From a virus: a stretch of DNA of 35,746 nucleotides. Both the position numbers and the translations under genes were made by a program. How positions within the stretch are numbered: the first letter of the stretch is position 1; every line of letters begins with the position of its first letter. The notes beneath the pieces are model-generated. The model did no database searches. It was given only the letters and a program-made list of their open reading frames with translations, and was not told where the DNA came from. The stretch covers positions 1-35,746 of IMG/VR virus record IMGVR_UViG_3300044633_000120; one strand, written 5' to 3'. Below are positions 2 to 35,746 of this stretch, piece by piece.

Positions 2-190
2 GTTGCGAAAACACCACAGTTTGATAAATTATTAGAGGTCTTTGGCACATATAAGGACATCGCGCATCACCTTGGGATGAAGTATGTAACTGTCTATGCC
101 TGGTCTATGCGGAACTCTATCCCCAAGAAACACCACGAAGCCATCATAGAAGCCTCGTTTGGCAAGATAACAGAAGAAGACCTTGCCTAA
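2..190 (+). CDS. Cro/YdaS-like HTH regulator, 5'-truncated copy
   Basis: This partial gene lacks its first codons because the window begins inside it; the reading frame starts with GTT at base 2. It matches the complete 65-aa gene at 34840-35037. The product is a small helix-turn-helix protein with the pattern YKDIAHHLGMKYVTVYAWSM, where the second helix would contact DNA. It differs from the right copy at three residues near the N-terminus (T-P-Q in place of K-Q-H), while changes elsewhere are synonymous. It overlaps the next gene by 8 nt. Confidence 0.75.
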   Translation, partial: VAKTPQFDKLLEVFGTYKDIAHHLGMKYVTVYAWSMRNSIPKKHHEAIIEASFGKITEEDLA

Positions 191-494
191 CTACAATCAG
201 CGTACAAAGGCTCTATACGAGTCTCAGGGATATAAATGCGAAGTGGTCGAATCCTACAACTCTTTTACAAAACGAAAAAAAGATATGTTTGGCATACTAG
301 ACATGGTGGCTATTGGAAACGGAGAGTCTTTAGGCATACAAATGACATCCAAAAGTAATATGTCATCCAGAATTAAAAAGATCCAAGAAAGCGAATATTT
401 CCCTGAACTTATTAGGTCTAAGTGGAGAATTATAGTAATTGGCTGGTTTAAAAAACCAAATGGGAGGTACGACTTTAAAGAATTTGAGTTTTAG
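183..494 (+). CDS. PD-(D/E)XK-like nuclease-fold protein (left copy)
   Basis: The 103-aa protein begins at a TTG that overlaps the stop of the HTH gene, so translation is probably coupled. It has the layout of small phage proteins with a restriction-endonuclease-like core: an N-terminal helix with RTKALYESQGY, then KKDMFGILDMVAIG, a strand LGIQMTSK, and WRIIVIGWFKK near the C-terminus. D39 and the Q-x-T-S-K segment (53-57) sit where the metal-binding Asp and (D/E)xK would lie, but the canonical E/D is replaced by Gln, so activity is uncertain. The right copy differs at F72L and a Phe-to-Tyr change in the C-terminal tail. Confidence 0.6.
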   Translation: MPNYNQRTKALYESQGYKCEVVESYNSFTKRKKDMFGILDMVAIGNGESLGIQMTSKSNMSSRIKKIQESEYFPELIRSKWRIIVIGWFKKPNGRYDFKEFEF

Positions 495-502
495 TTTATA
501 AT
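474..502 (+). promoter_or_regulatory. Promoter for the left pseudoknot RNA
   Basis: A perfect TATAAT lies at 497-502, just after the nuclease-like stop codon. A weak -35 (TTTAAA, 474-479) sits 17 nt upstream, inside the coding sequence. Start of transcription is expected near 509, directly before the structured RNA. The right copy has the same TTTATAATT block at 35410-35418. Confidence 0.55.
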
Positions 503-508
503 TTAGTT

Positions 509-625
509 ATCGCAGATCGACCCTGTGGAAGATACCCTTAATGGGTGTTTTGAGGCTTTAGAAAAGTGTTATGCAAGCACATTTTCCTAAAGGGTCGAAC
601 TCAGAACATCCTTTAAGGGTTTTTT
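509..625 (+). ncRNA. Pseudoknotted small RNA, allele A
   Basis: Helices seen directly: P1 CGACCCT (518-524) with AGGGTCG (591-597); P2 534-547 with 607-620, 13 of 14 positions paired; P3 hairpin 556-568 with 578-592 and a 9-nt loop (569-577). P1 and P2 strands interleave, so both together form a pseudoknot; P1 and P3 compete for bases 591-592. P2 is followed by a run of six T at 620-625, giving an intrinsic-terminator end. The P2 5' strand can also fold locally (ACCC/GGGT), so the RNA may be bistable. A TATAAT box lies just upstream. No known RNA family was recognised. Confidence 0.7.
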
Positions 626-637
626 GTTTTCTGCGTT

Positions 638-849
638 CGCACTCCAGGCGAAACATAGTGCTTAGATCGGCAGCGTGGAAGAAAAGATAGGCTCATTACC
701 CGATGGCAAGCCTCGCAGACTTAAATGGGTACTGCACAAAATTGTAGATAATAGGGTGAGCTAATCTGCAATTGAGTAGAACATTATCTTAGGAAGGACT
801 AGTCTGGTAACAGATGGGTCAGGGTGGCAGAATAAATGCCTATCACCCT
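638..849 (+). ncRNA. Conserved structured non-coding element (left copy)
   Basis: No ORF fits here. The part present in both end repeats (638-820) has only 3 differences in 183 nt, better conserved than the adjacent coding genes. Possible helices: ATCGG (666-670) with CCGAT (700-704), crossing AGGCT (689-693) with AGCCT (709-713); AATTGTAGAT (740-749) with ATCTGCAATT (764-773); a hairpin at 797-820 with a GUAA tetraloop (807-810); and AGGGTG (821-826) with CACCCT (844-849). Its 5' motif, AGATCG followed by GTGGAAGA, echoes the 5' end of the small RNA at 515-532. Function unknown; it could be a separate RNA, a long leader or a DNA site. Confidence 0.55.
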
Positions 850-869
850 TTAGTAGAGTATTGTCAAAA

Positions 870-2506: not shown

Positions 2507-2738
2507 TTGGGAGTTTATCCCTCATGCCTCTACCTGGCTAAATCAGGAGAGGTTCGAGGATGAGCTTGTAATCGAGCAGAAAGAAAACAAGAGACCACCT
2601 TTACCTTGGTATGCAAGCGATGAACTAACATTAGCCAAGGGTAGAGAACTAGGATTAAACCCATATGCAGGAGAAACTTTCGCGCAGTTTAGGGCTAGGC
2701 TGTCGGCTAAGATTGGGTCTGTAGGTGTAGGATCGTGA
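2355..2738 (+). CDS. Replication/helicase-loader-like protein
   Basis: The 127-aa protein opens with FENFWSQYPKKVGKLTAKRSW and continues to a PHASTWLNQERFEDE motif at about 56-70. This FW-YPKK / STWLN-RW signature is typical of the C-terminal domain of phage replication-organiser and helicase-loader proteins. The usual N-terminal HTH domain is missing, so it may be a stand-alone loader-type domain. The C-terminal ELGLNPYAGETFAQFRARL helix would suit binding to a helicase. The ATG follows AGGAAAAGGGAAA. Its stop overlaps the GTG of the Mom-like gene. Confidence 0.6.
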   Translation: MTFENFWSQYPKKVGKLTAKRSWEKLSLDNQQKALEAIVEHRKYWVAKGTDWEFIPHASTWLNQERFEDELVIEQKENKRPPLPWYASDELTLAKGRELGLNPYAGETFAQFRARLSAKIGSVGVGS

Positions 2739-3391
2739 AGGTCTTGCCTATTAAGAATGATGAGACTTATTCTTGGTTACTGCAAAAGCATTATGCAAAA
2801 CGAATACCACAAATTATGTATGCTTTTGGTTTATATGATGACGAGCATCTTGTTGGTGTAGTTACTTATGGAATACCAGCAAGCCCCTCATTATGTATGG
2901 GAATTTGTGGAAAAGAATGGTCTGACAAAGTTTTAGAATTAAATCGCCTTTGCTTGCAAGATAACACTAAAAATCAATCTAGTTTTCTTGTATCTAATTC
3001 TATAAAACTTCTACCAAAGCCAACTATAGTAGTTTCTTACGCTGATACTGGTCAAGGTCATGTTGGATATGTGTACCAAGCTACAAACTTTTTATATACT
3101 GGTTTGTCTGCAAACAGAGTTGATTGGACTGTTAAAGGTTTAGAACATAAACACAGCAAAACATTGTCAGATGGCATGACATTAGAAAGCATTAAAGAAA
3201 AATATGGTGATGATTTTTATTACGCAGAAAGAAGTAGAAAACACAGGTACATATATTTTCATGGCACAAAGCAACAAAAGAAATTGCTAAAAAGTTTACT
3301 TAAATATAATATCGAACCTTACCCGAAAGGAGATAGTAAAAAATATGACTCAGGAAGTAGAGTCGAAACACAAGCACTCTTATTCGGATGA
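2735..3391 (+). CDS. Mom-like DNA adenine-modification enzyme
   Basis: The 218-aa product resembles Mom of phage Mu, a GNAT-fold enzyme that converts DNA adenine to a carbamoylmethyl derivative and shields phage DNA from host restriction. Visible signature elements: QKHYAKR (18-23), ELNRL (68-72), SYAD (101-104), and GHVGYVYQATNFLYTG (108-123), which contain the conserved acidic and aromatic residues of the family. It begins at a GTG overlapping the previous stop. In Mu, mom needs host Dam and the regulator Com; no Com-like zinc-finger gene is adjacent here. The sequence is more A/T-rich at third positions than its neighbours, suggesting separate acquisition. Confidence 0.75.
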   Translation: MKVLPIKNDETYSWLLQKHYAKRIPQIMYAFGLYDDEHLVGVVTYGIPASPSLCMGICGKEWSDKVLELNRLCLQDNTKNQSSFLVSNSIKLLPKPTIVVSYADTGQGHVGYVYQATNFLYTGLSANRVDWTVKGLEHKHSKTLSDGMTLESIKEKYGDDFYYAERSRKHRYIYFHGTKQQKKLLKSLLKYNIEPYPKGDSKKYDSGSRVETQALLFG

Positions 3392-34687: not shown

Positions 34688-34727
34688 TTGATTTCCCTTT
34701 CAAAGAAATAAGCAAACATCGCCTATA

Positions 34728-34827
34728 TGTAGAATATCATAAATGTAGAATAAATGTAGAATAATTACTAGGGATATACCCTAATATCTACATTTACCTA
34801 TTTTGGGTGTAGAATCAATGTTCTACA
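34728..34827. promoter_or_regulatory. Operator cluster of the divergent control region
   Basis: TGTAGAAT occurs at 34728-34735, 34744-34751, 34755-34762 and 34808-34815; the last forms a perfect inverted repeat TGTAGAA-6 nt-TTCTACA (34808-34827) ending 4 nt before the GGAG ribosome site. A reversed half-site (ATCTACA, 34786-34792) and an inverted repeat TAGGG-5 nt-CCCTA (34769-34783) lie between. The region separates the leftward early operon from the rightward HTH gene. The small HTH protein is the natural binder (inference). Confidence 0.65.
34787..34815 (+). promoter_or_regulatory. Promoter of the HTH regulator gene
   Basis: TCTACA (34787-34792), 17-nt spacer, TAGAAT (34810-34815). The -10 box lies inside the perfect inverted repeat 34808-34827, so a bound repressor would block it. 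Transcription would begin about 20 nt before ATG 34840. Confidence 0.5.
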
Positions 34828-34839
34828 AAAGGAGATAAC

Positions 34840-35037
34840 ATGAATACTGTTGCAAAAAAACAACACTTTGATAAATTATTAGAGGTCTTTGGCACATATA
34901 AGGACATCGCGCACCATCTTGGTATGAAGTATGTAACTGTCTATGCCTGGTCTATGCGGAACAGCATCCCCAAGAAACACCACGAAGCCATCATAGAAGC
35001 CTCGTTTGGCAAGATAACAGAAGAAGACCTTGCCTAA
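34840..35037 (+). CDS. Cro/YdaS-like HTH regulator
   Basis: The complete 65-aa protein has a helix-turn-helix at about 20-40 (YKDIAHHLGMKYVTVYAWSM) and a helical C-terminal part, matching Cro/YdaS-like small repressors. A strong AGGAGATAAC ribosome site precedes the ATG. The operator at 34808-34827 overlaps its own promoter, so it probably regulates itself and the leftward operon. No separate CI-type repressor gene was seen, so it may be the only switch protein. It overlaps the nuclease-like gene by 8 nt. Confidence 0.75.
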   Translation: MNTVAKKQHFDKLLEVFGTYKDIAHHLGMKYVTVYAWSMRNSIPKKHHEAIIEASFGKITEEDLA

Positions 35038-35341
35038 CTACAATCAGCGTACAAAGGCTCTATACGAGTCTCAGGGGTATAAATGCGAAGTGGTCGAATC
35101 CTACAACTCTTTTACAAAACGAAAAAAAGATATGTTTGGCATACTCGACATGGTGGCTATTGGAAACGGAGAGTCTTTAGGTATACAAATGACATCCAAA
35201 AGTAATATGTCATCTAGAATAAAGAAGATCCAAGAAAGCGAATATCTCCCTGAGCTTATTAGGTCTAAGTGGAGAATTATTGTTATTGGCTGGTTTAAGA
35301 AACCCAATGGGAGGTACGACTACAAGGAGTTTGAGTTCTGA
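35030..35341 (+). CDS. PD-(D/E)XK-like nuclease-fold protein (right copy)
   Basis: The 103-aa protein has the same TTG start and coupling to the HTH gene as the left copy, with Leu at residue 72 and Tyr instead of Phe in the C-terminal RYD-x-KEFEF. Seventeen of the 19 nucleotide differences between copies are silent or in the stop codon, so both are under selection for protein sequence. The stop is TGA here and TAG on the left. Confidence 0.6.
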   Translation: MPNYNQRTKALYESQGYKCEVVESYNSFTKRKKDMFGILDMVAIGNGESLGIQMTSKSNMSSRIKKIQESEYLPELIRSKWRIIVIGWFKKPNGRYDYKEFEF

Positions 35342-35423
35342 TCGGGAAATTATTGGCTAATTTGCCTATTTTTTAAACAGAATGAACTGATCGGGATATA
35401 AGTTTTTGGTTTATAATTACATT

Positions 35424-35553
35424 AGCAGAGTGATGTCTGTTTGGTAAGTGGCTCTATACACAAGACCCTTTTGGGTTGTTCTGAGTGTTTAGTAAATGAT
35501 TTAGAGCCATTTATTAAGCAACATCACCTTAGAGCAACCTAAAGGGGTTTTTC
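35424..35553 (+). ncRNA. Pseudoknotted small RNA, allele B
   Basis: Same fold order as 509-625 with different sequence: P1 GTGATGT (35430-35436) with ACATCAC (35521-35527); P2 35465-35478 with 35535-35548, 14 of 14 paired with two G-U; P3 TGTTTAGTAAATG (35486-35498) with CATTTATTAAGCA (35508-35520) and a 9-nt loop; then a T run from 35548. TATAAT lies at 35412-35417. A 5' insertion adds TGGCTCTA (35449-35456), complementary to TAGAGCCA (35502-35509) in and beside the P3 loop, so a second loop contact is possible. Confidence 0.7.
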
Positions 35554-35563
35554 TATTTCTGCT

Positions 35564-35746
35564 CGCACTCCAGGCGAAACATAGTGCTTAGATCGGCAGC
35601 GTGGAAGAAAAGATAGGCTCATTACCCGATGGCAAGCCTTGCAGACTTAAATGGGTACTGCACAAAATTGTAGATAAATGGGTGAGCTAATCTGCAATTG
35701 AGTAGAACATTATCTTAGGAAGGACTAGTCTGGTAACAGATGGGTC
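35564..35746 (+). ncRNA. Conserved structured non-coding element (right copy)
   Basis: This segment is 98% identical to 638-820; the three differences are C-to-T in the GCCTCGC block and a two-base change in the loop of the 10-bp hairpin. The C-to-T change keeps pairing possible with the upstream GCG (G-U in place of G-C). The element is cut by the window end, so the last hairpin is missing here. Confidence 0.55.

Follow-up and report, generated by a model that had tools for sequence, protein, structure and literature searches.

Transcription attenuators act through alternative terminator and antiterminator folds, as in the leaders of amino-acid operons and in antisense-controlled plasmid leaders such as that of pT181. 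The temperate satellite elements P4 and phiR73 employ a processed, trans-acting RNA for immunity. In the repZ/repA leaders of IncI-alpha/IncB plasmids, a pseudoknot of a hairpin loop and a downstream strand controls the gene at the level of translation; the antisense RNA is known, and its target sets incompatibility.

Here we describe an RNA locus of bacteriophages in an IMG/VR record of 35,746 bases (the window, meaning the whole stretch of DNA analysed) and in its relatives. Like the attenuators, it is a leader directly following a promoter-like box, with helices predicted to be mutually exclusive, a U-tract and early genes downstream; unlike in attenuators, no leader peptide or ligand domain was recognized, the helix that would act as antiterminator is hypervariable, and a second structured RNA serves as cargo. 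With the P4 and phiR73 immunity RNA it shares its position in a phage leader, a predicted premature termination and an allele-specific pairing that differs between relatives, but it differs from them in that neither an integrase nor a trans partner was found, as detailed below. As in the IncI-alpha/IncB leaders, a hairpin loop pairs with a downstream strand, whereas here a terminator-like stem follows and there is no known antisense RNA. A leader switch with a terminator is of a known kind; new to us are the fast-changing matched helix, the order of parts that stays constant over unlike sequences, and the modularity of the RNA cargo.

Three further families were compared. The ornate phage RNAs GOLLD and ROOL (PMC12286853) are likewise phage-encoded, structured and of unknown function. 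The present RNAs are smaller, are exchangeable in both their 5' modules and their 3' domains, and have a terminator-like stem at the end of the 5' module; GOLLD and ROOL were dropped as candidates, there being no match to their Rfam models in the window, its relatives or the other module classes. The type III toxin-antitoxin RNA ToxI (PMC5772629) is also a pseudoknotted RNA tied to phage biology, but the phage module has neither tandem repeats nor a fixed toxin neighbour, and a type III antitoxin was rejected since each module is a single unit and the upstream genes differ among relatives. Finally, Rfam family RF02932 is one of the 3' domains that follow the same promoter and module in relatives, and its family model excludes the 5' module.

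Two alleles of an RNA locus at the ends of the window

The two RNAs of a preliminary description (509-625 and 35424-35553, here alleles A and B) were present where it had placed them, each behind a TATAAT box, and the order of parts given there, namely P1 5' strand, P2 5' strand, P3 hairpin, P1 3' strand, P2 3' strand and T-tract, was found in both (Table 1). P2 is paired in both alleles as well; this helix spans 21 positions and not the 14 described. By consensus scan, no -35 element was found for allele B.

Both RNAs had been assigned to the same locus of two end repeats. The ends (1-820 and 34848-35746) are indeed 94-96% identical outside the RNAs, with a flank identity between the two copies of 96% over 1-300 and 94% over 614-820, but the repeats probably do not belong to one genome, as the locus occurs as a single copy in each of eight other records of 34.6-37.2 kb. 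The two ends most likely represent two strains joined at the point of closure of a circular or terminally redundant genome, and the allele pair A/B would thus be natural variation between close relatives. With regard to the closure of metagenome assemblies, end-repeat tests of completeness would miss an overlap such as this, in which the ends differ by 4-6%.

Table 1. Features of alleles A and B and their surroundings, in window coordinates.
Feature	Position	Strand	Evidence or remark
103-aa gene before RNA, allele A side	183..494	+	second copy 35030-35341; query for 67 loci
-10 box TATAAT, allele A	497..502	+	sequence; paired by scan with TTTAAA at 474, spacer 17, 10/12 matches
H1 hairpin, allele A (CGCAG/CTGTG)	511..527	+	direct reading; loop 516-522 contains P1 5' strand
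P1 5' strand, allele A, TCGACCCT	517..524	+	partner 591-598; shuffle p 0.018 (6-bp core); P1 covariation in relatives
P2 5' strand, allele A (putative terminator 5' arm)	534..554	+	partner 600-620; shuffle p 0.0002
P3 hairpin, allele A	555..592	+	MFE fold; covaries in homologues of allele B
P1 3' strand, allele A, AGGGTCGA	591..598	+	covariation in relatives; shuffle test
P2 3' strand with T-tract, allele A (resembles an intrinsic terminator)	600..625	+	sequence; T-tract 620-625
3' structured RNA domain, type t1	634..860 (right end approximate)	+	helices with both-side changes, 21-sequence alignment
-10 box TATAAT, allele B	35412..35417	+	sequence and relatives
H1 hairpin, allele B (GCAG/CTGT)	35425..35440	+	stem pairing in relatives; covariation alignment
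P1 5' strand, allele B, GTGATGT	35430..35436	+	7/7 pairs changed on both sides; shuffle p 0.008
P4 5' strand, allele B, GGCTCTA	35450..35456	+	median helix 7 bp in 83 B modules; p 0.0026 in window
P2 5' strand, allele B	35465..35485	+	partner 35528-35548; covariation; shuffle p 0.0002
P3 hairpin, allele B (13 bp, 9-nt loop)	35486..35520	+	arms 35486-35498/35508-35520; both-side changes in 8/13 pairs
P4 3' strand, allele B, in P3 loop, TAGAGCC	35502..35508	+	permutation score; shuffle test
P1 3' strand, allele B, ACATCAC	35521..35527	+	covariation; shuffle test
P2 3' strand and T-tract, allele B	35528..35552	+	sequence, covariation; T-tract 35548-35552
3' structured RNA domain, type t1, truncated by contig end	35562..35746	+	94% identity to 614-820

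Relatives of the locus and covariation of its helices

Using the 103-aa gene in front of the RNA as query, 67 viral loci were fetched, most of which show this gene followed by a TATAAT-like box, the RNA module and a second conserved region. A short sequence pattern fetched many further loci, and 83 distinct modules of the allele B type were parsed from public viral contigs. As this pattern demands a B-type T-tract, the T-tract conservation within B partly reflects the selection of loci; scans anchored in the 3' domain are free of this bias, and a stem followed by a T-tract was found in 91 of the 94 distinct loci that were fetched via the 3' domain. A TATAAT- or TATACT-like box lies a few bases ahead of the module in nearly all relatives.

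Taken within each single allele of the window, the shuffle tests (Table 1) are modest evidence for P1, and it is the relatives that settle its pairing. Across 49 aligned B modules, 98.5% of the cells in H1, P1, P2 and P3 were paired, compared with 85.2% in column shuffles and 34-55% when the partners were slid by 1-3 columns. Cells with changes on both sides numbered 269, against 82 in shuffles, and the covariation score was 0.378 as opposed to 0.143 in shuffles and 0.05-0.07 in the slid controls. Both-side changes occurred at all seven pairs of P1 in this alignment, and the tested positions of the H1 stem were paired in all 81 relatives of allele B, two of which showed a change from A-U to G-C. 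The large-scale compensatory change, hard to ascribe to chance, that had been proposed from the two alleles was thus borne out by the homologues, in which both P1 and P2 covary. It is very improbable that the pattern stems from an assembly artefact, from chance pairing or from a DNA-level correction of inverted repeats devoid of RNA function. The probable origin of the two window copies from different strains would suit an artefact, but chance pairing is excluded by the 83 distinct B modules of public contigs together with the sliding controls, and P2 keeps mismatches and G-U pairs, so that a general correction is not acting.

A fourth helix, P4, overlooked in the preliminary description, is formed by a segment ahead of the P2 5' strand with the P3 loop; in B modules its score with the own partner was 18.0, compared with a mean of 9.9 and a maximum of 11.4 in permutations.

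The two RNAs had also been held not to align. A covariance model built from B alone, in contrast, finds allele A with 62 bits (E 5.7e-12) and the intermediate module L056 with 79 bits, and A and B are therefore distant members of one family. The same model did not detect classes C and D, and only the order of parts is common to B, C and D. This order is found again in the other classes (C, D and E), with H1 carrying the P1 5' strand in or beside its loop, followed by the P2 5' strand, an inner hairpin, the P1 3' strand, the P2 3' strand and the T-tract; P1 comprises 5-10 bp in these classes and the T-tract is kept. Class C modules have a P4 of 6-12 bp too, while their P1 is nearly constant. 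For 19 modules of classes D and E and others, the own-partner score was 20.1 against a permutation maximum of 16.8. Modules with little or no sequence similarity hence keep one architecture.

The class D modules L240 and L266, near-identical overall, are distinguished mainly by P1, which is changed on both strands (GTGAGAA/TTCTCAC versus GTAGAAA/TTTCTAC), and P1 is the sole difference within several pairs of B modules. The exchange between phages suggested earlier was confirmed in that modules are swapped between close relatives, P1 and P4 being fast-diversifying.

Predicted folding before and after completion of P2

Were all helices to form together, P1 and P4 would cross P2, whereas they are nested before the P2 3' strand is transcribed. 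In the nascent RNA up to the end of the P1 3' strand, P1 was part of the predicted MFE structure in 80 of the 83 B modules, and the full-length RNA is predicted to form P2. The calculated share of modules adopting the P1 state was 0.98 with 6 nt of the P2 3' strand exposed, 0.60 with 12, 0.25 with 15 and 0.02 with 21. In the window, the MFE structure is predicted to flip from P1 to P2 at 615-618 in allele A and at 35542-35545 in allele B, that is, near the T-tracts beginning at 620 and 35548, respectively. P1 overlaps the H1 stem by 2-5 nt in 10 of 16 hand-delimited examples and by 1 nt in two B examples, and is free of overlap in four; such overlap is as expected for alternative folds.

One pseudoknotted fold had been envisaged previously. 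Its helices are real and covary, but P1 and P4 can also make a nested alternative that would exclude the terminator. In the single fold, the H1 loop would pair with the strand before the P2 3' strand and the linker with the P3 loop, resulting in a compact, stable small RNA; with its hidden 5' end and terminator 3' end, it might act freely as a decoy or a protein-binding RNA. The helices covary jointly and for the most part draw on different bases, H1 itself is conserved, and kissing complexes provide known examples of 7-nt loops that are fully paired, all of which suits this fold. It agrees less well with the 2-5 nt of the H1 stem that P1 takes up in many classes, with the length of P4, which attains 9-10 bp in part of the B modules and 9-12 bp in the majority of the C modules and is hard to fit into a loop of about 10 nt, and with the nested folding being predicted first. 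P1 covaries and is nested before the P2 3' strand exists, as a terminator-excluding helix in an attenuator would be; a pseudoknot that leaves P2 and P3 intact would rest on identical pairs, so that covariation alone cannot separate it from a switch. On these folding predictions we favour two exclusive folds, which fit better than one, and regard the single pseudoknotted fold as unlikely, if still a serious contender.

Beyond the helices named so far, the data are suggestive of a P0 stem in read-through RNA, in which GCAGA could pair with TCTGC past the T-tract: the next pair is formed in 60 of 81 cases versus 45 expected, and the following one is not paired. There is weak support for the linker pairing with the 3' arm of P3. 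The consensus terminator scan covers only loops of up to 8 nt, and it is because of this limit that it misses the present terminator-like structures.

Rates of change and the question of allele specificity

Along nearest-neighbour links of at most eight differences, the changes per base pair and link amounted to 0.118 in P1, 0.015 in P2 and 0.005 in P3. Double-sided changes made up 20 of the 24 seen in P1, 11 of those 20 being of the transversion type. The P1 core is almost entirely Watson-Crick, with G-U pairs at 5 of 411, as compared with 17% in P2 and 14% in P3. The rate excess of P1 reflects either selection for difference or simply a stronger constraint on P2 and P3.

A self-specific RNA acting in trans, in immunity, incompatibility or interference upon co-infection, would give these data a function, in that the P1 and P4 alleles would decide which leaders are targeted and would hence diversify. 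The rate of P1, about eightfold that of P2 and 20-fold that of P3 among nearest relatives, is in line with such a role, as are the prevalence of double-sided changes, the scarcity of G-U pairs in the P1 core and the modules differing in P1 alone. Extra constraint on the P2 and P3 strands could also explain the rates, no antisense promoter was demonstrated, and neither a complement nor a copy of 13 nt of either RNA was found elsewhere in the window genome, which thus offers no trans partner. Moreover, nine records of this phage group yielded neither a tyrosine integrase nor a serine recombinase; a plasmid-like lysogeny is conceivable, but a role in classical lysogenic immunity becomes less likely, while interference upon co-infection may occur. 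We consider the trans-acting reading rather improbable. Immunity, one of the roles offered in the preliminary description, accordingly found no support in these records, and its notion of a specificity-determining RNA stands as far as a structured RNA with fast-diversifying P1 and P4 is concerned, but not as to specificity, since strands with a single partner may suffice for the variation.

Downstream RNA domains and neighbouring genes

The RNA domains 3' of the modules fall into five kinds or more, one of which is RF02932 while the others match nothing. Sorted by short motifs, 117 distinct downstream sequences comprised 42 of type t1 (that of the window), 42 of type t3, 16 of the RF02932 type, nine of type t5 and five of type t6. 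Type t1 is structured, with helices showing both-side changes among 21 sequences, and P1 alleles recur ahead of different 3' domains. The search of Rfam (release 15) suggested beforehand yielded no known family for either window RNA: nothing exceeded the gathering score, and nothing convincing appeared up to E 10 for the 5' module and t1, the window's 3' domain being without a match to RF02932. In the many relatives searched, the 5' modules of other classes were without a match, and the sole family was RF02932 in some 3' domains; Rfam confirmed it in ten loci (L041, L042, L045, L048, L053, L099, L101, L116, L139 and L189). Within the library searched, the literature contained no paper on RF02932 or on this locus.

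Several side observations concern these domains. RF02932 (Betaproteobacteria-1 RNA, function unknown) occurs in phage contigs directly 3' of the promoter-like box, with or without the 5' module. In L156, L020, L021 and L023 the 3' domain is recombinant, the first part of t1 running into unrelated, structured-looking sequence. Type t3 (L328 and relatives) carries the nearly invariant GAGCGAGGGTCGACACCTGCGATA. At some loci it leads with hardly any gap to a start codon region, and it may represent a 5' leader that has a function of its own. Type t6 (L183, L119, L129, L113 and L131) has the unusual T-rich and G-rich sequence GGGGGGGTAGGGGGGGTTTG after the module in these five loci.

The co-occurrence of module and 3' domain, which are nearly always together, and the expected start site at H1 would also suit a 5' module serving as a stability cap for the 3' RNA domain, with a T-tract that seldom stops the polymerase. 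This we hold to be quite improbable, as classes that share little or no sequence similarity repeatedly show a T-tract directly behind the strongest stem, and loci without a module exist.

No Pfam family over cut-off was found for the 103-aa gene. The genes upstream vary in relatives, where the one that ends immediately ahead of the box may be HNH-like, PAPS-reductase-like, a sugar-nucleotide gene or another, these names being a reading of the sequences rather than the result of profile tests. The window encodes a replication-initiation-like protein at 2355-2738, relatives of which are common within 2.5 kb downstream (60 of the 225 ORFs listed). A Mom-like DNA modification protein is encoded at 2735-3391 (PHROG 1384, E 7e-59). 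Between the divergent early genes and before the HTH gene (34840-35037), repeated TGTAGAAT and TTCTACA motifs at 34700-34840 look, from their sequence, like operators. In L234 (MW202674.1, 3690-4186), the deposited annotation has several tiny proteins on the opposite strand over the RNA locus, which are probably spurious.

A scan of bacterial genomes gave a single matching contig, a Bacteroidota MAG fragment, which does not indicate the host. The sample context of the closest reference records (Manatee Spring), as read here, points to fresh water as the source of the phages, which for the window itself is an inference.

Discussion

We propose, with about even confidence, that the element acts as a bistable attenuator of transcription, located where an early phage transcript begins. 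The RNA would start at or near H1, and during its synthesis P1, together with P4 in alleles such as B, would close a nested fold in which the P2 5' arm is kept from its partner. Once the P2 3' arm emerges, the P2/P3 hairpin could displace P1 and H1 could re-form, whereupon the T-tract would end transcription and leave a product of some 115-130 nt. Were P1 to hold instead, the polymerase would go on through the 3' RNA domain to the early genes. The attenuator would thus be poised at its own T-tract, gating read-through to the presumed benefit of the phage. P1 and P4 would vary fastest either since each of their strands has a single partner or because alleles must not cross-pair. Candidates for the signal are polymerase pausing, a phage or host protein on H1, or an RNA in trans.

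For this reading speak a promoter-like box followed by a stem and a U-tract, as read from the sequence, and the loci without a module, in which the 3' domain directly follows the promoter-like box, and, as a suggestive point, the P0 pairing in read-through RNA. Against it, folding predicts a much more stable terminator state once the P2 3' strand is complete; free-energy folding is not kinetics, which limits the attenuator reading. The four examples in which P1 and H1 do not overlap and the weakness of the linker pairing also tell against it.

If the attenuator reading is right, an RNA switch, in place of a known protein, would serve a widespread group of uncultured phages at a decision point in early transcription, and this switch would keep its architecture among modules of little or no sequence similarity. 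Direct tests are warranted by the strength of the covariation. The orphan RF02932 is placed among several interchangeable downstream domains of phages, which provides a context for asking its function. It is a doubtful but consequential idea that apparently lytic phages carry a large allelic series of such RNA switches, whose hypervariable helix is a private pairing code, as an RNA system of self and non-self; if true, the RNA of one phage would act on leaders of the same code and not on others among phages sharing a host.
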